From assembly GCA_008330645.1 (NCBI GenBank), contig VLTN01000005.1, positions 372,001 to 436,000 of the forward strand: a stretch of DNA of 64,000 bases. The letters run 5' to 3'. Every line of letters begins with the position of its first letter. Position 1 is the first letter of the stretch. Shown one piece after another: positions 6,785-39,249 of this stretch. Below the pieces are notes generated by a model. It was not told where the DNA came from. It saw nothing but the letters and a program-made list of their open reading frames with translations, and did not search any database. A program made the position numbers and the translations under genes. Source of the stretch: Cafeteria roenbergensis (Eukaryota > Sar > Bigyra > Bicosoecida > Cafeteriaceae).

Positions 6785-8086
6785 TCAGCGCCTGCGCAAC
6801 GCCTCTAGACGGCGTCTCCGCAACTCCGCTGGCGCCATGCCGGAGCCGGGCGTGCCTGCAACGGGTGAAGCCTGGGGCACCGCTTCGACAGGCGCGCCCG
6901 CCGGCTCGAGCCGTGAAGCGCGGTCTGACTGCAATGCCTGGGCAGCGGCCGCAGCTTGGCGCGGAGGCGCAATCGCAAACGACCGCGACACGCCTGAGGC
7001 ACGCGTCTCGACGGGAAAGGCCCCGCTCCTGGCCGAGAGCGGGGTCGCTGGCAGCGGGGAGCGTGCAGGGTCCAGGCCCGGGCTCGTGCCCTGGGCCTCA
7101 GGCTGCCGGGCCTGGAGTGGGGCGGTGTGCTCCGCTGTGCCTTGCTCCGCTGTGCCGCGCTCCGCTGCGCCGCGCTCCGCTGCGCCGCGCTCCGCTGTGC
7201 CGCGCTCCGCTGCGCCGCGCTCCGCTGCGCCGCGCTCCGCTGTGCCGCGCTCCGCTGCGCCGGGGGGCGGGGCCACGCCGTCAGAAGAGCCCGTCAGCCC
7301 GTCAAACAGCTGCAGAAGATACGACGCCACAGCGGCCGAGCGCTCCTCGACCCAGCGGGGCCTGCTGAACCCCACTGCCGCTCCCGCAGCCAGAAGCAGC
7401 ACGATCCGAAGCCCGCGCCCGGACGGAGACGCCAGCTGCGCCGCGACAGACCGGCCTGCCACAAGCAGCCCCGACACCAGCGCCGCGCCGAGCAGCCAGC
7501 GCGCCGCCCGCCGGCGCTGCGCGGTGAGGTGCTCCTCGGCGCTGCAGAGGTCTTCGCCCGTCTCTGGGTCGGCCGGCGGACGCGGGTCAAGCACGCCGGC
7601 CACCTCGCCTGCCGTCTGCCCGGCCTGCTCGAGCAGGGAGAGCCACGATCCGCCGAAGTGCTTGGCCGCCTCGGCCGTCATCCCCACAAGCTCGGCCAGC
7701 GCGCCGACGCTGCCCACTGTCGCGTGCAGGCTCTGCAGCCACGGCAGCTGCGTTGGCGCGGCTCCGCTTAGCCCACTGTAGCCGTACCCGCCAGCAAAGG
7801 GCGAGGGGCTGCCGAACGTGTTCAGCAGCGACCCTGGGGTGTAGCCGCCGCCGATGCCTGAGTGAGGCACGCCACCCATGGGCCCGGAAACCGCCCCCAC
7901 CCCCCCATGCATCATGGCCGACACGGGAAACGGGGACTGGGGCGAGTAGGCCGGAGTCATCAACACTTGCATCTGCTGGCTCGACGCGGCGGCGACACCG
8001 CCCGGGGCATGCGAGGGCGTCGCATAGGCGACGGATTCCCCGGGGGGTGCGTCCTCGGAGCCCGGGGCTGATCCTGGGTGAGCCAT
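6785..8086 (-). CDS. Membrane protein with Gly-rich N-terminus, PEX13-like (tentative)
   Basis: 433 residues from the ATG at 8086 (MAHPGSAPG). The Gly/Pro/Met-rich first 110 residues include GGYGYSGLSG. An amphipathic segment follows (QSLHATVGSVGALAELVGM...EAAKHFGGSWLSLLEQAG), then two hydrophobic helices around residues 200-245 (WLLGAALVSGLLVAG and IVLLLAAGAAVGF). Peroxin-13, a peroxisomal import docking protein, has the same order: Gly-rich N-terminus, then a helical segment containing F-G-x-L-like motifs, then membrane helices. No SH3 domain is visible, as in plant PEX13. The tail holds a pentapeptide repeat AERG(A/T), nine times, encoded by a 15-bp minisatellite, followed by a basic C-terminus ELRRRRLEALRRR. 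The PEX13 call is inference from architecture; another peroxisomal or mitochondrial membrane protein is possible. Confidence 0.5.
   Translation of the reverse strand: MAHPGSAPGSEDAPPGESVAYATPSHAPGGVAAASSQQMQVLMTPAYSPQSPFPVSAMMHGGVGAVSGPMGGVPHSGIGGGYTPGSLLNTFGSPSPFAGGYGYSGLSGAAPTQLPWLQSLHATVGSVGALAELVGMTAEAAKHFGGSWLSLLEQAGQTAGEVAGVLDPRPPADPETGEDLCSAEEHLTAQRRRAARWLLGAALVSGLLVAGRSVAAQLASPSGRGLRIVLLLAAGAAVGFSRPRWVEERSAAVASYLLQLFDGLTGSSDGVAPPPGAAERGTAERGAAERGAAERGTAERGAAERGAAERGTAEQGTAEHTAPLQARQPEAQGTSPGLDPARSPLPATPLSARSGAFPVETRASGVSRSFAIAPPRQAAAAAQALQSDRASRLEPAGAPVEAVPQASPVAGTPGSGMAPAELRRRRLEALRRR
7128..7262. repeat. 15-bp coding minisatellite, about 9 copies
   Basis: Near-perfect 15-bp units alternate between gctccgctgtgccgc and gctccgctgcgccgc. 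On the minus strand they encode AERG(A/T) repeats in the PEX13-like protein. Because the unit is a multiple of three, copy-number change would keep the frame. Confidence 0.95.
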
Positions 8087-19955: not shown

Positions 19956-22900
19956 CTACGAGAGGGGGGCATCATAGGAGGTTTCGGAGACTTCGACCGG
20001 CGAAGTTGCAGCTTGGATTTGTCGCATGCTTGCGCGTGCAGCTGCCCGGCCGGCTTCCATCGCCGATATGAGTCCCTCCGGGTTGGCTGCCATTGCCGAG
20101 CTGACGTAAAGCTCCTGGGCAGCGACGCGCTGCACGCTGCTGCGGCGGCCCCCGGTCTTGCGCTTCCGCCTGGAGGCGCTGTGCTGGATGTTGCCGGAGT
20201 TGGGCACAGCCTTGTTTTCTTGGCTAGCCACTGTCGGGTCCACCGGCTTCGGGTCGCCAGGTCCGTCGGCAACAGGTGTTGATGGTGTGGCCACCGGGGC
20301 GACGCGGCTGCGCGAATCGCCGACTCGGCCAAGCCGGTTTGACGACCCCGGCCTTGACGCAACGTGCCAAGCTGCCGTCCTGGGTCCAGCAATGGACACC
20401 ATAGCCCGGTCTCGGGGGTCTGCTGGAAAGCCTGATCCGCTCATTGGCATGAAGCGCGGGCCCGCCCCAGCTGGCGCGTCTCGAGGCTCGAATCGGATTT
20501 GCCTGCCGCCTCCGCTCGACGAAGTGCGCGACTCCCGGCGAGCCCGGGCGCGGCCATGGTGCGATGCCGTTGTCCGCACTCGGACGCTCGAAGCATCGGG
20601 AGATAGCATCCCTGGAAGAACGAAGGAGGGCGGCCGCTTGAGTCGTCGCGCTCCAGGCTGGTGCCGCTCTGCTCGTCCTGGCGAGCCCGAGGCGTGAGTC
20701 GTCGGGTGTGATTCTGCGGTGACCTGAGCCCCTGCTGCCTGCTCTGCATGTCGCGACGACCCGGACAGCAAAAACGACACGCTCCGCCCAAGGGCGCCTG
20801 CCCGAGTGCCCATGAGCGTGGGCACAGCCTCCTCGCTGGAGAAGAGGTGATGCCTTCTCTCCGAGCAACTTCTTCGCCGTGAACGCGGCGTCCCCTTGGA
20901 ACTTTGGCCCGGGAGGCTCCTGTGACTGTGGTGGCTGCCGGCGCTCACATTGGTGGTTTTCGCAGGGTCTGTCACCCCGGCCGGGTATGCGATCACAGGG
21001 ATTGCTGCTGCGGCCTGAGATTCCAGTGGCTCAAGCAATTCGCCGCCCAGGAGTTTGTCTGCAACTTGCTCCTCCTTCACGGGAGGCAGCCCTCCACGCT
21101 CAAGGTCGGTGCCATCCGAGTCGTAGTCAGAGTGGTCGCTCGCGTCTTCGTCATGAAGGCGAATGAGTACCATGTTGTGCTCCGTCTGGTCCAGCCCGAT
21201 GCGCTCGTGATGCGCCGGCACTCGCAGCCCCACCGACAGGTCCACCACGAACAGGAAGAGAGCCGACGTCGCCAGCGTCCACCCCAGCATCGCCACCAGA
21301 CCAAGCACTTGCACGCCGAGCTGCGTGAAGCTGCCAGTCACGAAAACCCCCTTGCTCCCGAACAGCCCCGGTACCACGGTGCCGAACGCCCCCGCAACGA
21401 GGTGCACGCCGACCACGCCGACCGGGTCGTCGATCCCGAAACGAACAAGGACGCCGCCGATGCCGTTGGCGACGAGTCCCCCGATCATCCCCACCAGGAC
21501 CGCCTCCCACGGCCGGATGATGTCGCACGCCGCCGTGACGGCAACTAGGCCGCTCAGCAGCCCGGTGCACAGCTCCACGATGTCCACGTACTTGTTGCGC
21601 GAGGCGATCGTCGTGAAGACGAGCCCGCCAATCGACCCCCCAACCGACCCGAGGATGGTGTTCACGCCCGCGCGGGCTGCGGCGTACACCAGCCCGTTGG
21701 ACACACCAAGCACGGACCCCGAGTTGAACGCCATCCTGCGAGCTCACGCACGCACACACATACACGCACATCGTCGAGAAGGATGGACGGTATCGACCGG
21801 GCGCCCGCCGGGGCAGCGCAAGCGCGAGGCGGCCGGGCGACTTCCACGGCGGCTGCCCCCCCCCCCCCCCCCTTCCCCCGCGCCCCGACGCGCAAGGGAT
21901 GAGCGCCGGCCCAGCCCGACAGAGCAGCGAGTGACCCAGCGACCATGACCAGCCACCGCCGCCGCCTCTCACCAGCCGCTCCACAGCAAGAACGTGCCGT
22001 AGCACACCTGCGTCGGCGAACTGCGCGTCGGCCAGTAGACGTTGTTGCCCTTCTCATCCTGTGTGAACGTCCCCAGGCGCGGGCCAAGCCAGATCGTGGA
22101 CAAGAGCCCGCACACGCCCCCCACCGAGTGGATGGCCGAGCAGCCGGCGAGGTCGTGCATTCCCATCGCGTAGAGCCAGCCAGAGGAGTCCCACACCCAG
22201 TGCGACGGCACGCTGTAGATGACGGACGAGATGACCAGAGCATACACCAAGTAGACCTTGAACTTCATGCGCTCCGCCACCGACCCGCTCACGATGGTGG
22301 TGGCCGTGCACGCGAACGCGAAGCCGAAGAGGAAGTCGGGGAAGGAAGTCGGGGCGATGTCGGCCAGGAAGAACTGCGACGCTCCGGCAAACGCGCTGCC
22401 CCCAGGCCCGAACGCGAGCGCCCACCCGATGGCGAAGTAGCCGATCCCGGCGGCGCCGATGTCCATGACGTTCTTGGCCAGGATGTTTCCAGCTGCGGCG
22501 GGACACATTGGCGCGCTGAGTCGGGGAGCACGGCGGACAGCCGGGTCGGGCGGGCATCCGCTGGCCACGGATGGCAACCACGCGGGTTTGCGCGGCGCGC
22601 GGGGCGGCGCCCGGGGGGGCGAGGTACGTGGGGTTGCAGCGGCGAGGCGAGGAATCGGTTCGCGCGTCACGCGTGCCCGTGGCGTGTCGGCGTTTTCGGG
22701 CAGGGCATGCGCTCACCGCTTTTGATGCTGATGAGGCCGGACTCGAGCATCGCGAAGCCGGCCTGCGGGCGGGAGCACGGGCGGGTGATGGGTAGCATGA
22801 GCAGGTGGGTGGGCGGTCAGACGGGCACGGCTGGCCGGCTCCCCAGCATGCAGGGTCTGGCGGCACGCGCTCGGAGATTCGTGCAGGTCCAGGCGGCTTT

Positions 22901-23314
22901 GAGGCGCTTTGCAACTCTCGAGCCGCGGCGAGGGGGCATCTTCTTGCCCGCGCAACGGCATCCGCACCTGCATGGTCATGACAATGTATGCTGCGACGCA
23001 AGGTGGGCGGTTCGCGAAAGGGTGGCGGGTCGCTGACGCGGGCTCGGGGCACATGAGCAATCCAGCGTTGCTGATGACATACGTGGCCCGTCCGCCGGCT
23101 CCAGGGGGCTCTTCGCGCGCGCTTGCGGGGTCCAGCGGCTGAGCAGCCGCGCAAAGCACACAGGGTGGCACAACACTGCTCGGATGCCCCCGGCCGCGGT
23201 TGCCGCGGCGCGCACCGCCTCACCCGTCGAGAGCATCCAGGCGATGTCGGCCGCGGCGTTGGACTCCTCGATGAGCAAGAGCAGCAGCGCGGTGTCCGTC
23301 TGGTTCCCGCCCAT
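19956..23314 (-). CDS. Ammonium transporter, AMT/Rh family, copy 1 (downstream tandem copy)
   Basis: Plasma-membrane ammonium uptake channel-type transporter. Five exons: 23314-23224, a 23-nt micro-exon 22990-22968, 22762-22717, 22492-21973 and 21735-19956. They sum to 819 residues in frame. An in-frame upstream ATG at 23377 is an alternative start. Family motifs are DIAWMLSTAYIVMTMQAGFAMLESG, NILAKNVMD, SGSVAERMKF (phenylalanine-gate region), the first pore His in AGCSAIHSVGG, WMAFNSGS, CDIIRPWEAVLVGMIGG and the second pore His in VGVHLVAGAFG. About ten membrane helices end near GLRVPAHHERIGLDQTEHN. The C-terminal tail of nearly 400 residues is basic, Ser-rich and far longer than usual. Its end, VAAQELYVSSAMAANPEGLI, resembles copy 2. 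The gene is in tandem with copy 2 and shares a nearly identical core with it. Confidence 0.92.
21159..22785. repeat. Near-identical duplicated tract, copy 1 (partner 24927-26555)
   Basis: 1,627 bp almost identical to 24927-26555. By eye I count about eight substitutions plus differences in one poly-C run. It spans the end of the last membrane helix through exons 4 and 3 and the intron between them, stopping in the intron just upstream of the AGFAMLESG exon. Outside both edges the similarity falls abruptly. Confidence 0.93.
22968..22990 (-). other. 23-nt micro-exon of ammonium transporter copy 1
   Basis: Encodes the second to eighth residues of AYIVMTMQ, with one nucleotide of the Ala codon supplied by exon 1. 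It is preceded by a CAG acceptor and followed by a non-consensus GTGCGG donor. Without it the conserved first-helix motif SAYLVFAMQxGFAML of the family would be broken and the frame lost. Confidence 0.9.
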
Positions 23315-23377
23315 GCCTGCGGAGAACCCCCCAGCCTGCCGGCCTGGCTGGTGCACCCCCGCGAGAGCGCCTCGCAT

Positions 23378-23930
23378 TCGCCCAAGGGTCTCTCGGCTGC
23401 CTTGCAGGGAAACGTGGCCTTGGAGCGGCCGGCCTCTTCCGGCCGAAGCAGAGTCGTCGCTCCGATCACGGCAAGCCCACAGTTGAGCAACTTGCGCCGA
23501 ACTCCTTGGCATACTCATAAGGATGCGCCGCCTTGAGCCCAGCTCCCTCCTTGCGCGTTGGCTAGTCGAACCCAATCACTGGCCCGTTCCGTGAACTCCG
23601 TGCCGGCTGTCAACGCCGCGCCCTCGCCATGGCGTGGCAAAAGCGCGAGCTGTGAAGGCGAGTTCGAGCCCAACAGCTCGCTACAGCACGCCTCTCTGGT
23701 GTGAGCACAGCCGCAAGGACGCGGAGACGGCGCCTGAAGAGCAGCCAGCCACCCACAGGCCGCAGAGTCGCCAGCAGCAGTCGGGTTCCTGGGACACGCG
23801 AACATTCGTTGCCAGCACTCGCCTCGTTGGCCGAATCGCTCACGCGCTCGCTCACGCAAGTCATTCAGCAATTGCGCGATCGGGGGCGACTGCTGGCGTC
23901 CTGGGACTGCAGCCATGCCGACGGGAGACC
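23378..23930. other. Intergenic region between the tandem ammonium transporters
   Basis: About 550 bp that must contain the copy 1 promoter and the copy 2 3' end. No repeat shared with the region upstream of copy 2 is apparent, so the two promoters look diverged. No gene is supported. Confidence 0.4.
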
Positions 23931-26900
23931 TCAAGGCTTGTCTTTGGGCTCCAAAGAGCGTGACTTGCTGGACACTCCTCTGCTCAGCTTGGCTTGGAGC
24001 CTGCCTTCCTCCATCGCAACGAGGAGGCCTTCTGGGTTCGCCGCCAACGCCGGTGAGACATACATCTCGTGCGCTGCCACCCGGCTGATTGTGCTGCGCT
24101 GGCCCTTCGACGAGCGGGACCGGCTGCCTGAGCTTCCTCGATGCTTGGGCCTAGACTTGCTGGCGCTGCGGGCCTTGCCGCCATCACGGCCGGCCGGCTT
24201 GGCAGCGACGTGCCACTCTGCAGCAGTTGAAGGCCCTGCGACTGCCACGATGGCGCGGTCAAGCGGGTCCACCGGGAACCCAGACCGCGACAGGGGCACG
24301 TTCCCCGCTGACGCTTCCGCCGGCGTGTCCTGTGGCCTGACGCGCTCACGAACTCCGTGCGCAGCATCGTATCCCAGGCGTCTCTTGGAGTGCGTCGCGT
24401 GGCTGGGCCGTCGCTTGCGCAGGGCAGCTGCGCTGGCCTCCACCGTTCCAGCGACTACGAAGGACGGGGGCTTGTGAATTGGTGGCTCCATCGTCTCGGC
24501 TGGCGGGTCGCCCTGGGAAGCAGTGATGTCCGGAGCATCTTCATGGAGGCGTCCCGTGGCCAAGCTGCCTTGGGCAGCTGCTGTTGGAGCTGGCTTCGCA
24601 AGGTAGTGGGACATTGTGCGATAGAGGCTGCCAGATCTCTTTCCCAGCATCGTCGAGCCTTCATCCATTGTGGGGACTGGCGATGACGGAGCATTGGACT
24701 CACCCTGCCTTGCAGTCGACAAAGCTGCAGGTTCCAAGTTGCGCTTGCTGTCATGGCTCACTGAATCTGCCGCTCCGGTGTCAGTGACCACGCGCTTCGA
24801 TCCAGGCAAAATGGTGTGCGCCTCGCCAGACTTCCAGGACCTGACGGACGGCGTGGCTGCCCCGTCCCGTGTGCTCGGTTGCTCGTCCTCCTCTTCGTCC
24901 GAGGAGTCGTCCCCCAGGTCATCCAAGCGAATGAGTACCATGTTGTGCTCCGTCTGGTCCAGCCCGATGCGCTCGTGATGCGCCGGCACTCGCAGCCCCA
25001 CCGACAGGTCCACCACGAACAGGAAGAGAGCCGACGTCGCCAGCGTCCACCCCAGCATCGCCACCAGACCAAGCACTTGCACGCCGAGCTGCGTGAAGCT
25101 GCCAGTCACGAAAACCCCCTTGCTCCCGAACAGCCCCGGTACCACGGTGCCGAACGCCCCCGCAACGAGGTGCACGCCGACCACGCCGACCGGGTCGTCG
25201 ATCCCGAAACGAACAAGGACGCCGCCGATGCCGTTGGCGACGAGTCCCCCGATCATCCCCACCAGGACCGCCTCCCACGGCCGGATGATGTCGCAAGCCG
25301 CCGTGACGGCAACTAGGCCGCTCAGCAGCCCGGTGCACAGCTCCACGATGTCCACGTACTTGTTGCGCGAGGCGATCGTCGTGAAGACGAGCCCGCCAAT
25401 CGACCCCCCAACCGACCCGAGGATGGTGTTCACGCCCGCGCGGGCTGCGGCGTACGCCAGCCCGTTGGACACACCAAGCACGGACCCCGAGTTGAACGCC
25501 ATCCTGCGAGCTCACGCACGCGCACACATACACGCACATCGTCGAGAAGGATGGACGGTATCGACCGGGCGCCCGCCGGGGCAGCGCAAGCGCGAGGCGG
25601 CCGGGCGACTTCCACGGCGGCTGCCCCCCCCGCCCTCCCCCCTTCCCCCGCGCCCCGACGCGCAAGGGATGAGCGCCGGCCCAGCCCGACAGAGCAGCGA
25701 GTGACCCAGCGACCATGACCAGCCACCGCCGCCGCCTCTCACCAGCCGCTCCACAGCAAGAACGTGCCGTAGCACACCTGCGTCGGCGAACTGCGCGTCG
25801 GCCAGTAGACGTTGTTGCCCTTCTCATCCTGTGTGAACGTCCCCAGGCGCGGGCCAAGCCAGATCGTGGACAAGAGCCCGCACACGCCCCCCACCGAGTG
25901 GATGGCCGAGCAGCCGGCGAGGTCGTGCATTCCCATCGCGTAGAGCCAGCCAGAGGAGTCCCACACCCAGTGCGACGGCACGCTGTAGATGACGGACGAG
26001 ATGACCAGAGCATACACCAAGTAGACCTTGAACTTCATGCGCTCCGCCACCGACCCGCTCACGATGGTGGTGGCCGTGCACGCGAACGCGAAGCCGAAGA
26101 GGAAGTCGGGGAAGGAAGTCGGGGCGATGTCGGCCAGGAAGAACTGCGACGCTCCGGCAAACGCGCTGCCCCCAGGCCCGAACGCGAGCGCCCACCCGAT
26201 GGCGAAGTAGCCGATCCCGGCGGCGCCGATGTCCATGACGTTCTTGGCCAGGATGTTTCCCGCTGCGGCGGGACACATTGGCGCGCCGAGTCGGGGAGCA
26301 CGGCGGACAGCCGGGTCGGGCGGGCATCCGCTGGCCACGGATGGCAACCACGCGGGTTTGCGCGGCGCGCGGGGCGGTGCCCAGGGGGGCGAGGTACGTG
26401 GGGTTGCAGCGGCGAGGCGAGGAATCGGTTCGCGCGTCACGCGTGCCCGTGGCGTGTCGGCGTTTTCGGGCAGGGCACGCGCTCACCGCTTTTGATGCTG
26501 ATGAGGCCGGACTCGAGCATCGCGAAGCCGGCCTGCGGGCGGGAGCACGGGCGGGAGCACCGGCGGGCGAACCCGAGCGGAATCCAACACCGTGCATTTG
26601 CAAGCACTCGGCCAGACGCTGTGCCTACCATTCAAGCAGGTGCCACCGTCGAAGTCGATTGCTCCGCAACTGAGCACGCGCTTTGCACACGAGCGCCGGC
26701 CCGACCATGCATTTTACCACTGCGGCGGCGTTGCCGACGCAGCAGCACAGGCGCAGTGCGCCAGGAACTGGGCTTTCGCACCTGCATGGTCATGACGATG
26801 TAGGCTGCGAGGGTGCACAGGAGCAAGACTACTCGGCGCGGCGCTATGGGTGGCTTGCGCTTGGGCAGCCGGCAGACTGCTTGCGCTGGTCGCCCGCTTG

Positions 26901-27066
26901 AGCTCCCCTCACCTGTCGAAAGCATCCAAGCAATGTCTGCCGCCACGTTGGATTCCTCGAGGAGAATCAGCAGCATCGCTGTGTCTGTGGTGTTCAGCCC
27001 CGACGGAAGCCCGGCGGCCGACCTTTCCGCAAGTGCCAGGTTCGGCGCGCCTCGCGAGCCGAGCAT
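23931..27066 (-). CDS. Ammonium transporter, AMT/Rh family, copy 2 (upstream tandem copy)
   Basis: Tandem paralogue of the preceding transporter with identical exon structure: 27066-26913, a 23-nt micro-exon 26804-26782, 26532-26487, 26262-25743 and 25503-23931, giving 771 residues in frame. The start at 27066 (MLGSRGAPNLALAERS) is the nearest in-frame ATG. Exon 1 (TTDTAMLLILLEESNVAADIAWMLST) is homologous to but clearly different from copy 1. The transporter core is nearly identical; the only amino-acid change I noticed is Val to Ala in NGLAYAAARAG. Pore residues (AIHSVGG; VGVHLVAG) are retained. The 310-residue cytosolic tail diverges strongly from copy 1, except near its end (VAAHEMYVSPALAANPEGLL). 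Different tails and N-termini suggest different regulation or localisation of the same transport activity; that is inference. Confidence 0.92.
24927..26555. repeat. Near-identical duplicated tract, copy 2 (partner 21159-22785)
   Basis: 1,629 bp, same content and boundaries as the partner tract. The copies are direct repeats about 3.77 kb apart. The 2-nt length difference lies in the intronic poly-C run (about 21856-21872 versus 25624-25642). Confidence 0.93.
26782..26804 (-). other. 23-nt micro-exon of ammonium transporter copy 2
   Basis: Same length, phase and encoded peptide (AYIVMTMQ) as in copy 1. It lies outside the near-identical tract and differs from copy 1 at two silent positions, so the exon is being kept by selection. 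The donor is again non-consensus (GTGCGA). Confidence 0.9.
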
Positions 27067-27538: not shown

Positions 27539-30500
27539 TCAGCCCAAGGAGTTTGCGATGTGCAGCCTGCCGGGCCTGCTGAGGTCCGCCCGCGCTGGCG
27601 GCAACCAGTCCGCTGCTGAGACTGGCGCCGCGGCTGCCCGAGGCTGGTCTTGCCCGTCCTCCTTCGGCTTGCGGCTTTCCCCCCACCTCCACTGGCCAGA
27701 AATCACATTGTAAGAGAACTCGCGCGAGCGGCTTTCGTCGAAAAAGCTGTGCCAAGCCCGTTGCTCGATAGTCAAGGCTGCTCTGTGCGCGCTTTGGCTG
27801 GCATACGCCCGTATGGCCTCCCGTTGCTGGCTGCTGAGTTTGGGAACGAAGCTCTCGAGCTTGCCCGCCTCTCCGTGTGCAACCACTGGCTCTAGCACCT
27901 CGGGGGGGACGCGAGGCAGATCTGCCTCGAGCACCAGCAGCCCCTCGCCACCATGCCAAACTTTGACGATGTCCCGGGCTTCTCGGCAAAGCTGGACCGT
28001 CCAAGCGAGCTCGTGGCGCAGCTGCTCTTCTGCCTGCGCAGCATGGCTCAGCTGCTCAGATGCAGCCGCTTGGGCACTCGCTCGCAACTCAATCTCGCGC
28101 TCCGCCGAAGCGACAGCCTCGCGGCTCGCCTGCATCATGGCTTTAGCTGCCTGCGCCTGGCGGTGGAGCGGGAGCGCTGGGGCTGCTTGGCGGGCGTGCG
28201 CCGTCATTGCTCGGATGAAGCGCACCAGCGCGCTCAGGGCTGGCGAGATTGCGACGATGCGCCGATCGTCTGGCCGAAAGTCCGGGTACCCTTTGAGGAG
28301 GTCATCCAGCGCCCCGAGCAGCTCTGAGTCAGCCGCAAGCTGGAAAGGCGAGATCGTGTTGGCCTGGAGCTCGGCCAAGAGGCGAACTGGGAACTCAGCC
28401 GGCAGCAAGCGGCCAGCCGGGCCCAGCGTTCCTGCAGCCTCGCAAGCCTGTCGGCTGGAGAGAAACAGCACCACAGCATCCCAATCATCAGGTATCGAGC
28501 AAATCAGGGACAAGCCCCTTCGCACCGCGCCCAGCATGCGCTTGTTGCCCGTGAAAGGCGGTCGCTCGGCTCGGACGTCGGCCCAGTCGAGCTCATGCAG
28601 CGCCCCAAGGTCCGCAACCGCTGCCAGGTACTCCCCTCGTGATCGCCCCTCCGACGAGCGCCAAAATGCTTCCAAGTCCTTCCTCGCGGCGCTTTCACGA
28701 AGCCGCGACGACCGCTCGGTCTCCTTGGCCCGCTCGATAGATGCAGTACAGTCTCGAACTCGCTCCCTGGCTGCGGAAACCTTCTTTCGCATTGCTATGG
28801 CGGCGCTTGCGAGCCGCGTTTGCCTCAGAAGTACTGCTTGCAGCATCTCCCGTGTTTTTCGCAGACCAACTGTGCCGGCAATTGCCCCATTGCAAGCCAC
28901 GAGCGCCCGGCAGATCTTGCGCACGTCATCGTTGCTCCCGTCAACCCCCGGCGGTAGCATCGGAAGTGCAGCCGCAACCATGGCCGACTCGAGCCCTTGC
29001 CAGGGCGTCGCTCCAGACTCAGGGTGGGGAGGCATCCGCACCTTTGTCGTGACTGCGTCGATGCCGCTCTCCCCGGCGCTGGCAGCGGCTTGCGGCGCTG
29101 GGGATGCGTCCCGGCCCGGCGCCTGTCGCGCCACCCCGGCGGAGGTATCCAGCCCGCTGAGCCCGCCTGCCGGGACACCAAGCAGGTCTTCCAATCCGCG
29201 CTTTGTGAGTGCCGCCTCCTGAAGCAGGTCGCGGAGCTCTTTCCAAAACACAGCTCCCTCAGGAGTTGGCTTCACGGCAGACTTGCGAACCGGGTACCGC
29301 CGAATGAAAGCAGCCGTCGCATGAGTTGATACAAGCTCTCGAGGCCGTCCTTCTCGGCGTCCGTGAACGAAACGAACGTGCGTGCAGAGCTCTGAATCTG
29401 ACTTCCGCGCGTGCACTGCCGCGCTTGTGGCGGGACGCCCGGCAACGAACTCCGTGGCTCTTCGCGCCACGTCCGCCTGTGCATCGCGCACCAGGCCGCC
29501 CAGCATGGCCCTCACAACAGAGTCCAGCACGGAGTTGAAGGCCTCCAAGTCCATATCGCGGAGGACGGCGACGCCACGGGTGCTCGGCAGCCGCGGGGGC
29601 GCGGCGCGCGGGCTCCGGTCCGACACACTCCGCGTCCGCCTCGGAGGTGGGAGATCCAGGCTGCCAATCCCAGCAAGCCCTGTTCCGAAGGCGGCCTGTC
29701 GCTCCGCGGCCACGGCGCTGGCTGCTGTGCCTCCAGCGCGACGAGAACGCTGGCATGGGCAAGAGCTCGCACGACGTCGGGACAACGGCGCAGCCATGGG
29801 CTTGCCGCGGTCACGGGGTGTGCTGCCTACTGATTCTGAGGACTCGCTCTGCGGTATCGGAGAATATATCACGGCAGCCCCGTGCGCTTTGCCGCGTACA
29901 TAGGAGCCAGAAAAGATTCTGCCGTCTGACTGTCGGAGCACCCCCCGACCGTGCCACAAGCCGTTCGCAAAGTGGCCGGCAAAGACCGACCCCTCGGAGA
30001 GAAGTTCTATTCCAAGGCCATGCTTTCTTCCGGCTTTCCACGTCCCCATGTAGCCCGGCGCTCGCCGGCCAGGGGCCCCGGCGGTTTGCGCCTGCTCCGC
30101 GGAGGCTGCTGGCGACTGGCAAGCACGTTGAACACCGAAGCCATTGGGCTTGCCGTCGTCGCAAAAGCCGGCATACTCGACGCCAGCATCGGCCGCCCGC
30201 CTGAGGACGAATCCGGAATGGGTGCCCGATTTGAACGCCCCTCGCAGCTGCGAACCGTCGGGGAAAGTTACCTCTCCTGGGCCACTTGCGAGCCCTCCTT
30301 CCCAGGTGCCTGCGTGCTGCTCACCGCTTGGGAGGATGCGGACGCCCCACCCATGCTTCTTCCCTTGCCAGACGTAGCCCTGATACATCTCCCCCGTTGA
30401 GAGTGTCTGTAGCACAAAGCCAGACACCGTCGCAGGGTCGAAGAAGTTGTCGACGGCCGGCCCCTGGATTGTCGAGCCTTCCGGCGTGGTCCAAATGCCC

Positions 30501-33500
30501 CAGTGCTGCAGGTCCTTGGGTGATCCCGGGACACGAGCTCGGGAACTCCTTGTCGGAAGATCAGAGGTCACGCTGCCAGCTTCAACTTTTCGGCCCAAGC
30601 TGCTCACGTATGGATTCAAGCTCGCTAGAGTCCGAGCCTGACGTGGCGGCGAGGCCGAGCGAAATTCGGACATTGCTCCGACTCCCGGAAGGGCACTTGG
30701 CCTCGAGCAGCGGGCTGGCTGTGTCGGAAGGAACGGGCCCCTGTACTGAGAGCCGTCTTCGAAGCGAATCCAACAGCGGCCGACTGGCCGGCCATTGCAG
30801 AAGCTTCCTTGCAAATGCTGGATGCGGCTCTGCTTCTTGGTCCCTCCCCTTGCCAGGGGATCTCCTTCGCCGCTGGCCTGGGCTAGTCGCATGCGATGAA
30901 CGACAGCAATGGCGCAAGGCAGTTGGTCTTGCTCTGCCACACTGGCAAATGTCGCTGGTAATCCAGCAGCCGAGGCCTCGGTGGCCAGCCTCGACGCCGT
31001 TGCCGCCTTGAGAGCTTGCTGCTTGGCTGCGAAAATGAGCTCTTTCAGCTCTTGGCTGCGATCTGCCTCCTTTTGTGCAAGCCATGAAGGCACCCTAGCA
31101 GGCGCCAATTCGCGGCCCGCATCTCCCTGACGTGGACTCGCACGGTCATGCGAACCCACCCAAATGCGGTGCAGCGAGCGTGCCTGCTCCTCCGCCTCTT
31201 TGATCGCACGCCGGCGATCTCGCAGCGCTTCTGCCCAGAGCCGCTCAGTTTGGCTTCTGAGCAGTTCTACGACGACTGCGTCCCGCTCGGTTTGGGCCCT
31301 TGCTGCTTCTCCGAGTGGAGCCAGCGAGCACGTGGCAGCAGCTTCACCTCCAAGCAACGCCCGTTGCATTGCAACCAGCCGGTCGAACGACTGCGGCCCA
31401 GTCCGGCAGATCTTGGGATCGAACTTCGGGTGCCCTCGCAGAAACGTTGCGAAGCCAATGCCATGGGGCGCCCCAGGCGCGCATCCTGTGTCGAGCCACT
31501 CGCCGTGGTACAAAGCCCATCCATTCATCGAAGTGTGAAACGAGCTGTCGAGACAGCGAAACTCGAAAGGGGCGACCCAGACTCTGCGTTCCACGGCACT
31601 GCGTTTGACCCACGGCCCGCCAATGCACCTGGTGGCGCAAGGGGTGCGGCCCATTTGCTCTGCACTGACAAGCTCGGCAGCGGATCGTTGCGGTCTATTA
31701 TGGGCTCTGAGACTGCCTCGAGTTTCGCCTGCACCACCTTCGGCGCCGCCACTATCGAAGCAGCTGCGCGGTGCGCTGCTGGAAGCGCGGCTAGCAAGCC
31801 TGCCTGGCAGCTGAAAGGATCCAGGCGAGCTCAAGCCAAGCCACGCGCAGGCTCGGCCCATGATCGAGTCCACGAGCCGCCAGCAGCACACAGCCAGGAT
31901 GCTCCTCCGGCGCCACAGCGCGAACACCAAGAGTGGCGGCTGGGCCAGCTGCGCCTCGGTGGATCCATTGAGCGGCAGGACCAGCTGGCCGGTGCCTATC
32001 AGAGCGCCAAGCCCAGGAGGAAAACTGGAGCTCACCCTCCTGCTGACCCCGGAAGGGTGGCCGCCGTGCGAGGCTCTGAGCTGAGAGGCGGCGGCTTTCG
32101 CCCCGCCTTGAGCCTTTGCAGAGTCTTGTGCGCTGGCTTGCACGCCAGCAGAGCGAACACCTGCTTCACGCGCTCGCGCTTGCGGGGGATCCATCAATAG
32201 CTCCTGGCACCGATGCACATCGGCTTGAGCAGGGCCGTGCAACGAATGGACGGCCGCCGCTCCTTCGAGGTGCAGTAGCAGACGTGCCAGCGCATGGCCC
32301 GACGGCTCGCATAGCCTGCCGGCTTGTTCCAAGGCGGCCAACAGCCCCGGCTGAATGGTGGAGGCCACTCGCTCCCAAGGTCTCACTCTCAGCCCACGGC
32401 GTTTGCTCTGTGCGAAACGGTTCTGATCCCCCGATCGGTCAGCGCCCTTCCATGCTGCCGATGGCTCGTGGTCGTGCAGCTGGTCGACAAGGAAGTCTTC
32501 GTTGGGATTGACCGCGGGCTCAAGCCCAGCCGCGGCCAATGGGTGCTCGATCAGCAGCTCTGGAGCGGACCCAAACACCTGGCGCAGGCCCAGCCCAGCG
32601 CGTTGAGGTCCCCCCAGGGGATCGTCCACACCTGTTGGCCTCATGTCAGGCATGTCGCCAGTGGCTTTGGCGCGCAACACGGCGGCGAAGTCGGCGTTTC
32701 GAATTGCATCAAGCCGGCGATTGGGAGCTCGCGCGAAACCCTGCGCAGCGTCAACTGGGGGGATCCGCTGCCCGAGCACGAGTCGCTCTCCCAAGGAAGC
32801 TCGACCGACGGCTGCCGCACGTGCTTGCTTGGCCACCCTCACCGCCCAAGCCTGGCGCTGCTCCAGCAGCCAGGCGAGCTCGCATGCCACCCGTTCGCCG
32901 ACTCGCTCCACCGCCCAAGCTTGGAGCTTGGAGCGCGCGCAGCGATTGCACCCCATCTGACGCAAGCACGAGATGGCCATGGGAGGGGCCAACCTTGCTG
33001 TCACCTCGGCCGCGCGCTCAGTGTCAGGCGGCACTGTCCGGTCCAACGAGGCGAGCATGCCTTGCCGCTGCCCTTCGAGCCCCATGGCAAACACTTCGCT
33101 TGCCTTGACTCCGGCGGGGAGCCCGGTCGCTCCGTCCAAGCTGTGCCCCGTGCCGCCGTACCGCCGCTTGCGCCGTCGCACGAGCTCCTGGCGCGCAAGC
33201 CACTGTCGCGCACATCGTTGCAGTCTCATTGAGGCGAAGACTCGCGCTTCTCGCTCACGCCAGGAGGCAAGGCTCCGTAGAAGGGACTCCATGGTCGGAG
33301 ACGCGCAGTCTAGCGAGCTGCCGAGCGCAATCTCAAGCGGAGTCCGCTCCCGAGGGTCGCCGGAGATCGGAATCCACAGAGTTTGGGCCCCGCTCCCGGC
33401 GCCGGCCGGATCATCCATGGGGACCCCTTCGCAGTCCGAGAGGGACCGACGCTCCAGCCCTGGCGCGCCCAGGCGCTCCAGCTGCTCTGCAAGTCGGGTC

Positions 33501-36500
33501 TCGGTGCTCAGGGACCGAGCAACCGAGCCCGAAGCGAGCAAGTAGTCCTGCTGAGCTTTCCGCACGCTGCCGAGCGCTTCGTCTGCCAGGCCCTGCGGGA
33601 TCAATATACATCCCGAAAAGCCTTGACCATTGGAGACTGCGTACGCTGCAGAGCAAGGGGCCGGGTTTGCTTCGGCCAAGCAGTGGAAGCCGTGAAACGG
33701 GTCTGGGTTCAACGGCACAGTCCAGTGCTCGTTGCCAAACAGCGCGTCATCTGGCGGACACGTCCGAGGGAGCAACTTGACGCGCCCCCCTTGGTCACTC
33801 CTCACAGCCACACGACCGTCATCAAACGCAAACGCGTCCGCGTGCACAACGGAGGCGGTTGTGCCACGCAAGGCATTCCTTGGCTGGACCACTCGCACTC
33901 CGTGAGTGGGGACAAAGTGTGGCAGTGTCATCCACTTGCTCTGAAACTCATGGCGACGCCAATGAGACGCCAGGTCCGCACCCTGACCAATGGAGCCTCC
34001 AGCGAACCGCAACGTCCGAGTCGCCAGCTCAAGCGCAAGCATGGCGTCATGAACGACTTCGGCCGCCAGTTGCCCCCACCGCACGACGACGTCGAGCACC
34101 TCGAGCCCGATGGCCCACACCAGGGCCAGGCGGACCCTGGACTGCTGGCGCCGCGTTTTGGCGCAGCACACGCTCCTGCACCACGAGCCGACAGCACGGC
34201 GCTCGCGAAGCCGCTTGGCAGCCTCACATCTGGCTCGCATCGCCGCCTGCATCCTGTTTCGCGCCAAGCGAGCCCTCACCAGGCGCTGCACACGCGTTGC
34301 CAGCTCGAAATGCCGGCGCAGCTGGATGAGAGTGCGACGCAGTTGCCGTTCCGCAAACCCTTTCCAAGCCGCCTGGATTCTAGTCGCCGCAAATGGCATC
34401 CGGGCCTTGCGTGCCTGCGTTGCCTGGTGAAGGATGAGACGCTGCCGGGACATTTCTGCACCCTCTGCGGCCAGTTGCATTGCCGAGAGCGCGCGCATTG
34501 CTTTGATTCTCTCCCTGCCCTGGGTCCGACGACGGCTTTGCGTCCAACCCCGCGCGATTCGGCCGGCCGCCCTGCGGTACCGTTCGAAGCGAGCCGAGTC
34601 GGCGTCTTCCGCTTCGAGTCCGACTCGATTTCGCTCGGCAGCCCAGAAGTCTCGAAGGACTGCCTGGGTTGCGGCCCTTGCAGCCTCGCGGCGTGAGCGG
34701 CACTGCCGCCAGGCTCTTTGCAAACAGAGTGCGACCGTTGCACGGGCGGCTTGCTGCCGCGCTGTCTCGACTCGGGCGCTTCGGTCTCGCCACGCCGCCT
34801 GGATGCTGCACGCAGCCTGGTCCCGCCTCCGGAAGACGCCCCAATCGGCGTTGCCTGACGCGGAGAGGTACTGGCTGGCTGCTTTCCACGCGTCCCACGC
34901 GCATCGGATCCGGCTCCGCCGCCAGTGCGACACGAGCTGCAGCGTCCCTCTCCGTGTTGCCATCAGGCTTTCCTTCCACGCGCGCAGCGCCGCTCGGCGC
35001 CGACGTTGGATGGAAAAACGTTCTGCTCGCCTGTTGGCTGCAATCGCCGCTGCTGCCTCAACACGGTGGTCGCGAAACCTGTGGAAAGCCTTGGACAGCC
35101 TCAAGAGATGCTGCCGTCGCCTCAAGCCATCAGCCGCATGCTCGCGCTCCCTGGCCAGAGCCGCGCGGGAGCGAAGAGCGCGCAGCCAACGCCGAGCAAT
35201 TCTCCGGGCGGAGGCTTGCTCAGCTGCCTGACGCTGCTTGCTGCAGCGCCGCAACGCTGCCCACCGCGCCCAAGCCCGCCTCCGTTTGGCCAGAGGCAAG
35301 AGGCGAGACTCAACATCTCTGCACGTCCGCTGAAGCTTTGTGGCGGCTGCAAAAGCGCGCAAGGCCTCACCAGCAACGCCATTCCTGAAGCAGGTGGCGC
35401 GGAAATGAGTCCTCGCCTGAGCTCGCTCGCGCTTTGACCAGACCACGGCTCGCTTCCACTGGCCAAAGCTGCTGCGATTGGCTGCAGCACAGTGAAACTC
35501 ATCTGCTGCTTCGCACTGCTTTGCGCGGAGTTTCCCCGCCTGCGACTCGCGGGCGTTGAGAACGCTCCACGGCACGGCGGTCAAGAACACCGCTTGGAGG
35601 GCTCGACGGCGCTTGCGCGTGGCCTCCACCACGCTCGTCCACGCACGGAGCGCTGTCCGCTGTCTGCGAGCGGCCAAGTGCCGCAGCGCCCTTGCGTCGT
35701 TGGCTTTGCGGACAGCGCTGCGCAAAGCGAGTTCCTCGCGCTGCTCAGCTTGCAGCCTCTCCGCTGCGGCCTTGCCGTCCGCGAGCCGAAGGCGGATTGA
35801 TCGGAGTCTGGGACATGCCAGCACCCAGTCTGCTATCCTTGCTTTGGCCGCATTGCGCTGCGCGTCCCGGCCACGCTGGATTTCGCGGTGTCGGCGAAAC
35901 GCGCAGCAGATCGTTCTGACAGCTTGCCTGCGGCGCACTCGGTCGAGGCTAACTGCGATTTCCCATGATTCGGTACGGGCCTCATCGGTCCACGTGAAGC
36001 CCCAAAACGTAGAAGGCAGCCCGAGGCTGACCACGGCGCTATGAGAGGGGCCGCGACGCCCGCCTGCTTGGAACGCATGCGACGCTGCGGTCCTGCTCGG
36101 CACGGGAATGCCAAGAACCTTGCCAAGGTTATCTGCATGCTGCAACGGAACATGCGAGCAGATTCCCCACTCGTAGGACGCTCGGACAGCACCGACGTCA
36201 CTGGCGTCTGCGGGGTCGCCGCTGGCAGGAGCAGCCGCCGACAGGGAGGCCTCACGCGCCTCTTCCTGCGATGCGACGCCGAAAGGAGGCACCAGTTGCC
36301 GAAGTGACCACTCCCACACGCGACCAGCTAGCTGCAGGGGTGGGGGGCGGACTAGCCTCGGCGCTCTCCCGGCCCGGGCCACCACCGCTGGCAAGACTCC
36401 AGGTCCAGAGACTGCGCAGGCAGGAGCGAACCCTCCGCAATTCTGCCGACGAAGGTGTGGCAGTGCCTTCGCCAGGGCGGAGTGCGGGGCAAGCAGGGGC

Positions 36501-38971
36501 TCGCAGGCTGCCAGAAGCCTGGACCGATCGACAAGGCACGCCTCGGCCCACTTGCCCGCGCGCGGCAAGAACGGCCGGACGCCCGCCCACTGGCGCAGCC
36601 TGGACGCCTCCAGCACGGTGCTGCGCCGAATTCCTGTGCACCCAAAGACGCTCAAGGTGTGCAACCAGCGCCCAGCGGGAGACGCAGCGCTGGCGAGCGG
36701 CTGAATGCTCGAGTCGTCGACGTCGGGGCATCCAGCGATGTCAAGGTGCTCGAGCCCCCGAGCAACTCTCAGCAGCCTGGCCACTGCCGCAGACGTTGCT
36801 CCCGTGCCAGCAACGCTGGCCACCCTCAGGCACGGGGGCACGGCTTGCAGGATCGAGTCGCCGATTCCTTCGCAGCCCGTTGCTGCGATCACTTCGAGCT
36901 GGCCCAGGCAGCGAAATGCACGGAGGACGCTGGTTGCATCGTTGCCAAGGCAAGCGCACCCGGAGCAGTCGAGGGAGACGAGCGCCGGACACGCGCGTGC
37001 CAGTCGTTCAAGCGCGCCGCCCGTGATGGACTCGCACCCTCGAACGGAGAAGTGCTGTAGCCGCAGGCCACGTGCCGGAAGAATCGCAGCTAGCCCCCTG
37101 TCATCAAGCGATGTGAAGGCAAGGCTCAGCGAGGTGAGCGTTGGCACAAAGAGCGTCGCCGCCATGGCCCCAGCCGGCGTCAATCCGCACCCGGTCAAGT
37201 CCAGCAGCTCCAGCCGGGGTGGCGGGTGAGCCACGCTTGCGGACTCCGCCCCAGGTCTTCGAGGGGCAGCAGCTCCGCGCCTGGCCGCTGACCCCGCGGG
37301 TGGACCGAAGAGACTTGCCGGGTCTGCCGCGCCCGGGTCAAGGCCTGCTAGCGCAAGAACGGCGTCGTCGCCCAGACTGGCACAGCACGAGAAGGAGAGG
37401 GAAGCGAGTTTGCTGCAAACCCACAAATTCGCGATCCCGCTCGCGTAGTCTGCCGCCGTTCCGGACAGGTCCACTTGTGCAAGGTTGGGCGCCAGCCTTG
37501 ACAGCGGCTCCAGAAACCGGCCGTGCACCCCGGGGCAGGCATCCAGGAGCAAGGTCTCCAGAACGCAGTGCGACGCGGAGCTGACAAATCCCCACGGCTG
37601 CCTCCTGCCGAGAATGGCCGAAACCCCGTCGTCACCGAGGGTCTCGCATCGCGACGCGGTCAGCGTCCGCAGCCTGCCGGCAGACGAGTCCAGCATCAAG
37701 GCTGCGCGGCGGTCGTCCAGCCATGGCGACCCGGAAACATCGACTGCTGTGACACATGAGAGGCTACCGATTGCTGACGCAGTGTGGTCGCCGAGCTGCG
37801 GATTGTCCGCGACACAAACCTCGCGTAAGCGCGGCGCGAGACGCAGCGCCTCCCCCAAGCGGATGTCGTCGAGCTTCGCACACCCCCGCAGGTGAAGGCG
37901 CATCATTCGGGAAGGGGAGGCTCGAAGCGCGGCTGCCACCGTGTCCGAGCGCAAGGCCAAGCAGTCCGCGCATGCCAAGGACACAATGCTGGACGCAAAC
38001 CCCCGCCTGCACGACGCTCGCAGGGATGCGTCGTGCTCTGCAGCCCGGATCGTTCCTTGCAGCGACAGCACTTGAAGGCGCGGGAGGGCACCGTGAAAGG
38101 CTGCCCAGTCTTGCACATCGGCGCCGCCTGGGCTGCCCCCAAGCTGAAGCGCTGCGATTTGCAGCGAGGAGGCGTGTCGCAGTGCACCCAAAACTGCCCC
38201 AGGCCCGCCGAGAAGGCTCTCCGACACATGAGTGGCATCCAGCAATCCTGGCTCCACTGAGGGCAGTCTCGGCAACGCGGGCCGGCAAGCTGCTGGCCAA
38301 CAGGCCTGCAGTGAGAAGAGCTCCAGCGCTTGAAGCGGCGTACCACGACCCCTCCAGGGCTTGCTGCCTCGACCTAGCACTGTGGCATCGCCTGAAGCCG
38401 AGCCCCTCACCTCGTCAGGCGACCAGGCCGGAATGCGCAACCTGGGCACTCGAATCGGGGCGCTGCTCTCCTCTGCCCAGGCCTCCTCGAGCCCCCCACC
38501 AGCGGAGCCAGGGGACAGGGCCGCTTCCGGATGGCTTCTGTGATGCGGCCTTGCCAGGGCGGCGCGAGCTCCGCGGCGTGGCGCCAAGTCCCCGCCGCGG
38601 CGACGCGCTCGCAGCGAGCCCCCCGGCACCCGTCCCTGGCTTGAGTGTTGCCGCTGCAGCCCGGTTGCTGCCCGAAGGCTGACACTCCTTGCCCGGTGCC
38701 CGTCAGTGGCTGCCGCCCCGGTACCACAGGGCTCAGTTTCGCGGGGCAGCATCGGAGCCACGCGCGGCAACTGCGCTGCCGGCTCACGGCTGCGGCTTGC
38801 GCGGTGGTGTCGGTCTCCTCGCAATGCCGTCACGTCTCCGAGCAAGCTGTCCAGCTGCGCCCGGGCTGCATGCATTCCAGAGGTTCGCGGCGCTGCAGCT
38901 CGGCGCAGCCGCTCCGCGGCCTCTCGAGACTGGCCGGAAAGCTCCGCAAGGTCGTCCAGCGCCCCCTCCAT
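27539..38971 (-). CDS. Giant intronless LRR / IQ-SFI1-like / MORN / dynein-stalk-like protein
   Basis: 3,810 residues in one frame from ATG 38971 (MEGALDDLAELSGQS). Domains in order: cysteine-containing leucine-rich repeats at about 350-790 (LHLRGCAKLDDIRLGEALR; SLDCSGCACLGNDATSVLR); Trp-rich helical repeats resembling SFI1 and IQ motifs at about 1010-1660 (AACSIQAAWRDRSARVE; AATRIQAAWKGFAERQLRR), likely binding centrin or calmodulin; MORN repeats at about 2490-2510 and 2720-3050 (YQGYVWQGKKHGWGVRIL; AGHFANGLWHGRGVLR). A coiled coil enclosing a dynein heavy chain stalk-tip-like segment follows at about 3340-3690 (ELDWADVRAERPPF; YPDFRPDDRRIVAISPALS; LVRFIRAMTAHAR). Last is a WW-like motif near 3750 (FSYNVISGQWRWGES). 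No AAA motor is present. The architecture suggests a flagellar or basal-body scaffold. I know no named family with this combination. Confidence 0.8.
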   Translation of the reverse strand: MEGALDDLAELSGQSREAAERLRRAAAPRTSGMHAARAQLDSLLGDVTALRGDRHHRASRSREPAAQLPRVAPMLPRETEPCGTGAAATDGHRARSVSLRAATGLQRQHSSQGRVPGGSLRARRRGGDLAPRRGARAALARPHHRSHPEAALSPGSAGGGLEEAWAEESSAPIRVPRLRIPAWSPDEVRGSASGDATVLGRGSKPWRGRGTPLQALELFSLQACWPAACRPALPRLPSVEPGLLDATHVSESLLGGPGAVLGALRHASSLQIAALQLGGSPGGADVQDWAAFHGALPRLQVLSLQGTIRAAEHDASLRASCRRGFASSIVSLACADCLALRSDTVAAALRASPSRMMRLHLRGCAKLDDIRLGEALRLAPRLREVCVADNPQLGDHTASAIGSLSCVTAVDVSGSPWLDDRRAALMLDSSAGRLRTLTASRCETLGDDGVSAILGRRQPWGFVSSASHCVLETLLLDACPGVHGRFLEPLSRLAPNLAQVDLSGTAADYASGIANLWVCSKLASLSFSCCASLGDDAVLALAGLDPGAADPASLFGPPAGSAARRGAAAPRRPGAESASVAHPPPRLELLDLTGCGLTPAGAMAATLFVPTLTSLSLAFTSLDDRGLAAILPARGLRLQHFSVRGCESITGGALERLARACPALVSLDCSGCACLGNDATSVLRAFRCLGQLEVIAATGCEGIGDSILQAVPPCLRVASVAGTGATSAAVARLLRVARGLEHLDIAGCPDVDDSSIQPLASAASPAGRWLHTLSVFGCTGIRRSTVLEASRLRQWAGVRPFLPRAGKWAEACLVDRSRLLAACEPLLAPHSALAKALPHLRRQNCGGFAPACAVSGPGVLPAVVARAGRAPRLVRPPPLQLAGRVWEWSLRQLVPPFGVASQEEAREASLSAAAPASGDPADASDVGAVRASYEWGICSHVPLQHADNLGKVLGIPVPSRTAASHAFQAGGRRGPSHSAVVSLGLPSTFWGFTWTDEARTESWEIAVSLDRVRRRQAVRTICCAFRRHREIQRGRDAQRNAAKARIADWVLACPRLRSIRLRLADGKAAAERLQAEQREELALRSAVRKANDARALRHLAARRQRTALRAWTSVVEATRKRRRALQAVFLTAVPWSVLNARESQAGKLRAKQCEAADEFHCAAANRSSFGQWKRAVVWSKRERAQARTHFRATCFRNGVAGEALRAFAAATKLQRTCRDVESRLLPLAKRRRAWARWAALRRCSKQRQAAEQASARRIARRWLRALRSRAALAREREHAADGLRRRQHLLRLSKAFHRFRDHRVEAAAAIAANRRAERFSIQRRRRAALRAWKESLMATRRGTLQLVSHWRRSRIRCAWDAWKAASQYLSASGNADWGVFRRRDQAACSIQAAWRDRSARVETARQQAARATVALCLQRAWRQCRSRREAARAATQAVLRDFWAAERNRVGLEAEDADSARFERYRRAAGRIARGWTQSRRRTQGRERIKAMRALSAMQLAAEGAEMSRQRLILHQATQARKARMPFAATRIQAAWKGFAERQLRRTLIQLRRHFELATRVQRLVRARLARNRMQAAMRARCEAAKRLRERRAVGSWCRSVCCAKTRRQQSRVRLALVWAIGLEVLDVVVRWGQLAAEVVHDAMLALELATRTLRFAGGSIGQGADLASHWRRHEFQSKWMTLPHFVPTHGVRVVQPRNALRGTTASVVHADAFAFDDGRVAVRSDQGGRVKLLPRTCPPDDALFGNEHWTVPLNPDPFHGFHCLAEANPAPCSAAYAVSNGQGFSGCILIPQGLADEALGSVRKAQQDYLLASGSVARSLSTETRLAEQLERLGAPGLERRSLSDCEGVPMDDPAGAGSGAQTLWIPISGDPRERTPLEIALGSSLDCASPTMESLLRSLASWREREARVFASMRLQRCARQWLARQELVRRRKRRYGGTGHSLDGATGLPAGVKASEVFAMGLEGQRQGMLASLDRTVPPDTERAAEVTARLAPPMAISCLRQMGCNRCARSKLQAWAVERVGERVACELAWLLEQRQAWAVRVAKQARAAAVGRASLGERLVLGQRIPPVDAAQGFARAPNRRLDAIRNADFAAVLRAKATGDMPDMRPTGVDDPLGGPQRAGLGLRQVFGSAPELLIEHPLAAAGLEPAVNPNEDFLVDQLHDHEPSAAWKGADRSGDQNRFAQSKRRGLRVRPWERVASTIQPGLLAALEQAGRLCEPSGHALARLLLHLEGAAAVHSLHGPAQADVHRCQELLMDPPQARAREAGVRSAGVQASAQDSAKAQGGAKAAASQLRASHGGHPSGVSRRVSSSFPPGLGALIGTGQLVLPLNGSTEAQLAQPPLLVFALWRRRSILAVCCWRLVDSIMGRACAWLGLSSPGSFQLPGRLASRASSSAPRSCFDSGGAEGGAGETRGSLRAHNRPQRSAAELVSAEQMGRTPCATRCIGGPWVKRSAVERRVWVAPFEFRCLDSSFHTSMNGWALYHGEWLDTGCAPGAPHGIGFATFLRGHPKFDPKICRTGPQSFDRLVAMQRALLGGEAAATCSLAPLGEAARAQTERDAVVVELLRSQTERLWAEALRDRRRAIKEAEEQARSLHRIWVGSHDRASPRQGDAGRELAPARVPSWLAQKEADRSQELKELIFAAKQQALKAATASRLATEASAAGLPATFASVAEQDQLPCAIAVVHRMRLAQASGEGDPLARGGTKKQSRIQHLQGSFCNGRPVGRCWIRFEDGSQYRGPFLPTQPARCSRPSALPGVGAMSEFRSASPPRQARTLASLNPYVSSLGRKVEAGSVTSDLPTRSSRARVPGSPKDLQHWGIWTTPEGSTIQGPAVDNFFDPATVSGFVLQTLSTGEMYQGYVWQGKKHGWGVRILPSGEQHAGTWEGGLASGPGEVTFPDGSQLRGAFKSGTHSGFVLRRAADAGVEYAGFCDDGKPNGFGVQRACQSPAASAEQAQTAGAPGRRAPGYMGTWKAGRKHGLGIELLSEGSVFAGHFANGLWHGRGVLRQSDGRIFSGSYVRGKAHGAAVIYSPIPQSESSESVGSTPRDRGKPMAAPLSRRRASSCPCQRSRRAGGTAASAVAAERQAAFGTGLAGIGSLDLPPPRRTRSVSDRSPRAAPPRLPSTRGVAVLRDMDLEAFNSVLDSVVRAMLGGLVRDAQADVARRATEFVAGRPATSAAVHARKSDSELCTHVRFVHGRREGRPRELVSTHATAAFIRRYPVRKSAVKPTPEGAVFWKELRDLLQEAALTKRGLEDLLGVPAGGLSGLDTSAGVARQAPGRDASPAPQAAASAGESGIDAVTTKVRMPPHPESGATPWQGLESAMVAAALPMLPPGVDGSNDDVRKICRALVACNGAIAGTVGLRKTREMLQAVLLRQTRLASAAIAMRKKVSAARERVRDCTASIERAKETERSSRLRESAARKDLEAFWRSSEGRSRGEYLAAVADLGALHELDWADVRAERPPFTGNKRMLGAVRRGLSLICSIPDDWDAVVLFLSSRQACEAAGTLGPAGRLLPAEFPVRLLAELQANTISPFQLAADSELLGALDDLLKGYPDFRPDDRRIVAISPALSALVRFIRAMTAHARQAAPALPLHRQAQAAKAMMQASREAVASAEREIELRASAQAAASEQLSHAAQAEEQLRHELAWTVQLCREARDIVKVWHGGEGLLVLEADLPRVPPEVLEPVVAHGEAGKLESFVPKLSSQQREAIRAYASQSAHRAALTIEQRAWHSFFDESRSREFSYNVISGQWRWGESRKPKEDGQDQPRAAAAPVSAADWLPPARADLSRPGRLHIANSLG

Positions 38972-39249
38972 CCCTCGCGAGCAGGGGCTGTGCGCCGCAG
39001 AGGCGCTACACAGCTGTGGTGGAGCGACCCACGCCCCGAACTTGCCCCCCCCAAGCACCCAAATGACCAGGTTGCCGCCCCGTTGTCGCGGTGCGTCCCG
39101 GTTTTGCCGACGGGCTCTGCTTGCCAAAGACGAAGCAGTCGCGCGATGCAGCCGCTGCTGCTGCGGCTGAACGCTGCACCGGCGAAGAGCAGGCGCGTCG
39201 TACACCCGCCCGCCACTGCCAGCCGCAAAGGCCCGCACCGAGGACGGCA
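38972..39249. promoter_or_regulatory. Shared promoter of the giant gene and the RAP-domain gene
   Basis: 278 bp separate the two divergent ATGs. Both frames stay open through it by composition only, which makes the true starts hard to fix; I use the ATGs. Confidence 0.45.

Follow-up and report, generated by a model that had tools for sequence, protein, structure and literature searches.

The neighbouring human genes RHD and RHCE encode membrane proteins and exchange segments by gene conversion, and Rh proteins are distantly related to ammonium transporters. Genes retained from the yeast whole-genome duplication are dispersed and mostly lack introns. A review (PMC3924837) describes conversion between such yeast pairs as restricted to coding regions, and the human red/green opsin genes as a further pair of neighbouring membrane-protein genes that exchange segments by conversion. 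In Drosophila, duplicated blocks such as the Amy amylase pair are reported to have elevated divergence at the edges of a converted core (PMC2588116). Conversion among tandem duplicates is not a given, since very little of it is reported for tandem duplicates in corals (PMC10236652).

Here, we analyzed a 64,000-nt window (contig VLTN01000005.1, positions 372,001 to 436,000) of the genome of the marine flagellate Cafeteria roenbergensis, which is named C. burkhardae in PMC8547959. The window contains two tandem ammonium-transporter genes, A and B, in which a near-identical core lies between diverged ends, and interlocus gene conversion within an old tandem pair is very probably the best explanation for this arrangement. 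Like the Drosophila blocks, A and B would be an old duplicate pair with a core kept alike by conversion and with decayed edges; the Drosophila case, as presented in PMC2588116, was shown with orthologues from sister species, whereas ours is inferred from one genome. The yeast pairs resemble A and B in that the flanking non-coding sequences of the copies are unalignable, but they differ in that their conversion is described as coding-only (PMC3924837), whereas the tract in A and B spans two introns and excludes part of the coding sequence. The same review places a diverged peak inside the converted block of the opsins, while in A and B the ends are diverged and not the middle. Among the papers listed on ammonium transporters together with gene conversion, none describes this pair by title or start of abstract. 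PMC10236652 and PMC12636532 deal with other organisms. The main text of PMC8547959 contains nothing on ammonium or gene conversion, that of PMC7852580 nothing on ammonium or AMT, and that of PMC6972860 nothing on gene conversion or duplication. The pair is thus a clean and instructive example of a well-known process, as a converted core with decayed edges has already been described.

Gene models and family membership

Genes A and B are arranged head-to-tail on the minus strand, and both are ammonium-transporter genes. Both gene models are manual and based on GT-AG introns rather than on transcripts. Gene A (19956-23314, minus strand) encodes 819 amino acids in exons 23314-23224, 22990-22968, 22762-22717, 22492-21973, and 21735-19956; gene B (23931-27066, minus strand) encodes 771 amino acids in exons 27066-26913, 26804-26782, 26532-26487, 26262-25743, and 25503-23931. 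In these models, each gene has five exons, the second of which is a 23-nt micro-exon, all four introns of each gene are GT-AG, and intron positions and phases are identical between the two. Intron 3 is 224 nt long in both genes, and intron 4 is 237 nt in A and 239 nt in B. The GC content of the window is 70.8%. No match to a chlorophyll-binding family was found, and the idea of a photosynthetic host was dropped on that ground. Two primer sequences from Table 4 of PMC6972860, out of its 7 distinct ones, each occur exactly once in the genome, and a reversed control gave no hit. Upstream of the pair, the nearest long frame (27542-39394, minus strand) is open over 3951 codons and has weak matches to LRR and MORN repeats, and a tandem repeat with 15-nt spacing is present at 7092-7306.

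The first 420 residues of A match the Amt/MEP profile PF00909 of Pfam (E = 1.4e-98, residues 25-415) over profile positions 1-396 of 399, which is a full-length match, and the protein core of B differs from that of A by one residue. Two histidines of A align with histidines of PDB 6eu6, and we take them to be the twin pore histidines of the Amt family. The solved structures nearest to the core of protein A (23314-21173, minus strand) are 6eu6 (E = 1.2e-55) and 8qj3 (E = 1.1e-52), both presumably Amt proteins that signal, with E. coli-type AmtB well behind (E = 6.5e-36). Amt sensor proteins have a C-terminal output domain, either a kinase or a cyclase. The tails of A and B lack such a known output domain: they matched no Pfam family at E = 0.01, and no recognizable kinase or cyclase domain follows the channel.

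A family search of the genome, in which only the best candidates were scored, found A, B, and four distant transporter loci (C7, C76, C15, and C71). These four are at most 41% identical to the pair in protein over the aligned stretches, C76 being the most similar with 41% identity over 361 columns. The C71 locus (114382-118065) is another ammonium transporter in a single open frame of 1489 codons; it has a long insert, or a read-through intron, between the two halves of its domain and a long tail.

A near-identical core between diverged ends

The homogenized tract, delimited by BLASTN and site counts, lies at 21159-22785 in A and 24927-26555 in B (both minus strand). In A it comprises the last 23 nt of intron 2, exon 3, intron 3, exon 4, intron 4, and the first 577 nt of exon 5. 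BLASTN of the two gene regions returned the tract as a single match of 1638 columns at 99.1% identity. The two copies differ by nine substitutions, one of them in a poly-C run, and by a 2-nt indel in the same run, which agrees with the original prediction of about eight differences plus a poly-C run. This run consists of 17 uninterrupted C in intron 4 of A (21856-21872), is interrupted in B, and contains the sole indel of the tract. Runs of at least 16 C or G occur once in the window and three times in another 200 kb of the contig.

The substitutions are distributed as 0/46 in exon 3, 4/224 in intron 3, 1/520 in exon 4, 2/237 in intron 4 (including the one in the poly-C run), and 2/577 in the exon 5 part, with none in the last 23 nt of intron 2. 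Introns 3 and 4 are therefore identical at 220/224 and 235/237 positions, respectively, the latter apart from the 2-nt indel. The introns had also been predicted to be as identical as the exons. Their identity is indeed 98-99%, but it is slightly below that of the exons, with substitutions at 6 of 484 sites in introns and at 3 of 1143 in exons (Fisher p = 0.024). A slight excess of intron differences is expected from ordinary purifying selection on the exons since the last exchange. Two of the three coding differences are silent, and the third is a Val/Ala replacement. Only these two of about 296 silent sites differ, giving a dS of about 0.007 (95% bootstrap 0-0.017); at the silent divergence of exon 1, two or fewer differences among 296 sites would occur with a probability of about 10^-87. 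Outside the poly-C run, the eight substitutions are not significantly clustered, their longest gap of 737 bp being borderline (p = 0.07), and a reading of several events from clustered differences was dropped for this reason.

Upstream of the tract, the stretch from exon 1 to the micro-exon (22968-23314 in A; 26782-27066 in B; both minus strand) was compared by BLASTN, alignment, and dS. It is homologous between the genes and has diverged mainly at silent sites. Exon 1 and the micro-exon together share 32 of 38 aligned residues, and dS over 35 codons is about 0.87, with a wide bootstrap interval of 0.41-2.5, against a dN of about 0.10. Because the N-terminal divergence is mostly silent, the first transmembrane stretch is conserved. 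The micro-exons share 21 of their 23 bases. Introns 1 and 2 are unalignable: in a forced alignment, 51% of columns match for intron 1 and 46% for intron 2, the figure for intron 2 including the 23 identical nucleotides at its end. The next best BLASTN matches outside the tract were 82 columns of exon 1 at 82% and 40 columns of the micro-exon region at 90%.

Downstream, the tail of A (19956-21158, minus strand) has about 400 residues and that of B (23931-24926, minus strand) about 330, neither containing a Pfam domain. BLASTN matched the tails only over 97 columns at 68% (E = 0.04). In protein, 121 of 324 aligned residues are identical and silent sites are saturated, the alignment being uncertain outside short shared blocks around GFPxDPxDRA..AGPxTAA and RVAAxExYVSxAxAANPEGL. 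The last 161 residues of the A tail, searched against the whole genome, matched only themselves and B at E < 0.05, the match to B falling in two stretches (E = 1.7e-10 and 8.5e-7); two other places gave E = 0.06 and 0.95. Against the four other transporter loci, neither tail gave a match with an E value under 0.4. The predicted clear divergence of the ends therefore stands for the tails and for introns 1 and 2, whereas at the N-terminus it is mostly silent and the protein is conserved.

DNA searches of the genome with the core found two matching places, A and B, and those with the core, the region downstream of A, and the region upstream of B found no third near-identical copy or second haplotype. 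A leftover haplotig or third near-identical copy was likewise not found with part of the A tail as protein. These DNA searches missed the 82% match of exon 1 and the tail of B, and thus exclude close copies only; the exclusion of a copy with diverged ends rests on the family search that found A, B, and the four distant loci. We also compared the window plus the first 200 kb of contig C5 (C5:1-200000) with itself, covering 264 kb of 36.3 Mb with the low-complexity filter on. This comparison gave 51 pairs, and 25 of at least 80 columns were listed. The AMT tract was the longest match (1638 columns). The second longest had 494 columns at 79%, and no other match above 95% identity exceeded 222 columns, which rules out a general excess of such tracts within these 264 kb. 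The segment C5:182275-197890 carries tandem repeats as well as inverted repeats that reach about 98% identity, and looks mobile or repeat-rich.

Probable gene conversion and alternative explanations

The tract is near-identical, its flanks are homologous yet far more diverged, and the identity extends to silent sites and introns. Homologous diverged ends flanking a near-identical core with two introns are, at the level of sequence, the classic signature of gene conversion. Purifying selection acting alone could account for an identical pore in an old pair, and most of the conserved transporter domain does fall in the tract; it was rejected because two introns and the silent sites are near-identical as well, and exon 1 with the micro-exon, which is also conserved in protein, has a dS of 0.87. 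This explanation has almost no chance of being correct. An identical core between different ends would likewise be left if the whole gene had been duplicated recently and both ends had then been replaced with sequence from other paralogues. That history would require homologous ends to have been brought in twice, independently; none of the four other transporter loci exceeds 41% protein identity over the aligned stretches, and no other gene with such a tail turned up in the genome with the last 161 residues of the A tail as query. The search for donors was limited in that DNA searches are insensitive to diverged ends and the whole-genome tail search used A only. We consider end replacement extremely unlikely, and a recent duplication explains the data poorly, as had been anticipated from the diverged ends.

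A single core sequence might also have been placed in, or polished into, both genes. The published pipeline (PMC6972860) used Canu to assemble PacBio reads, discarded redundant allelic contigs, split contigs where coverage fell, and polished the result by Racon, first with PacBio and afterwards with 2x300 Illumina reads. Sites that distinguish the copies lie up to 625 and 369 bp apart, beyond a single 300-base read, so that short-read polishing may have removed or shifted a few differences in the tract. However, if the cores had been as diverged as the ends, each read should have mapped to its own copy, and polishing would then be unable to create the tract. The copies retain nine separate substitutions and an indel, and they lie in a 928-kb contig from a long-read assembly that, as described, was broken where coverage dropped. 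An artefact is highly unlikely on these grounds, in line with the earlier argument that the copies differ too much for an assembly collapse. Unequal crossing-over, double or repeated, whether between sister chromatids or between homologues, would produce the same final sequence as one-way conversion; it is less parsimonious, requiring either two exchanges within 1.6 kb or an intermediate array of three genes, and we regard it as very unlikely. The gene conversion reading of the original prediction is thus supported by homologous diverged ends on both sides, by a near-identical core with two introns, and by the failure of the alternatives where they were tested.

Under gene conversion, A and B would have arisen long ago as a tandem duplication, and the middle of one copy would later have been overwritten from the other in one or more rounds of homologous (interlocus) recombination repair. 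We infer a non-reciprocal exchange from one genome. The tract ends close to where the genes cease to be alignable: on one side it reaches 23 nt into intron 2, and on the other it stops where the variable tail begins, which suggests that pairing was limited by the remaining similarity. Introns 1 and 2 and the tail may already have been too different to pair, confining the exchange to the membrane-domain exons. Introns 3 and 4 could once have diverged as introns 1 and 2 have, in which case copying would have run through unmatched introns between matched exons; alternatively, exchange could have recurred often enough that introns 3 and 4 never diverged. Recurrent exchange agrees with concerted evolution with decayed edges as published (PMC2588116, PMC3924837). 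As to the direction of copying, the C76 paralogue aligns with Ala at the Val/Ala position, which at most polarizes a later change.

Timing and significance of the probable exchange

Outside the poly-C run, 7 of about 761 intron and silent positions differ (0.9%), and the Poisson range on seven differences is roughly 0.4-1.9% by our own estimate. Strain BVI, probably the strain of this genome, is reported to diverge from other strains by 0.8-0.95%, and average nucleotide identity is given as 99.05-99.22% for all pairs but Cflag/RCC970-E3 (PMC6972860). As the neutral divergence of the tract (about 0.9%) resembles that between strains, the last exchange would date to roughly the time of the strain split, give or take a factor of about two and provided that rates are alike. 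The organism is described in the same paper as apparently diploid with no known sexual cycle, and the other haplotype of the AMT locus may differ from the assembled one.

Conversion might, as originally predicted, keep the pore the same and let the N-terminus, tail, and promoter change independently, and selection for one pore with two tails is possible. In an extended form, one pore with two addresses, selection would favor repeated conversion of the channel for equal transport and oppose conversion of two different long tails, which might dock different partners or sense ammonium differently, and the poly-C run might be a break-prone start site; we consider this form unlikely. Edge decay without any selection for it gives the same picture as conversion that keeps the pore, and the first transmembrane stretch, encoded in exon 1 outside the tract, is still conserved in protein.

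In this protist, the pair is a clean natural case of a membrane domain very probably converted between two old genes, with tails in which silent sites are now saturated. Dating the duplication by the core alone would give an error of about a hundredfold (dS 0.007 against 0.87). Because four strain assemblies are published (PMC6972860), recurrent and single conversion can be directly tested against each other in this organism.
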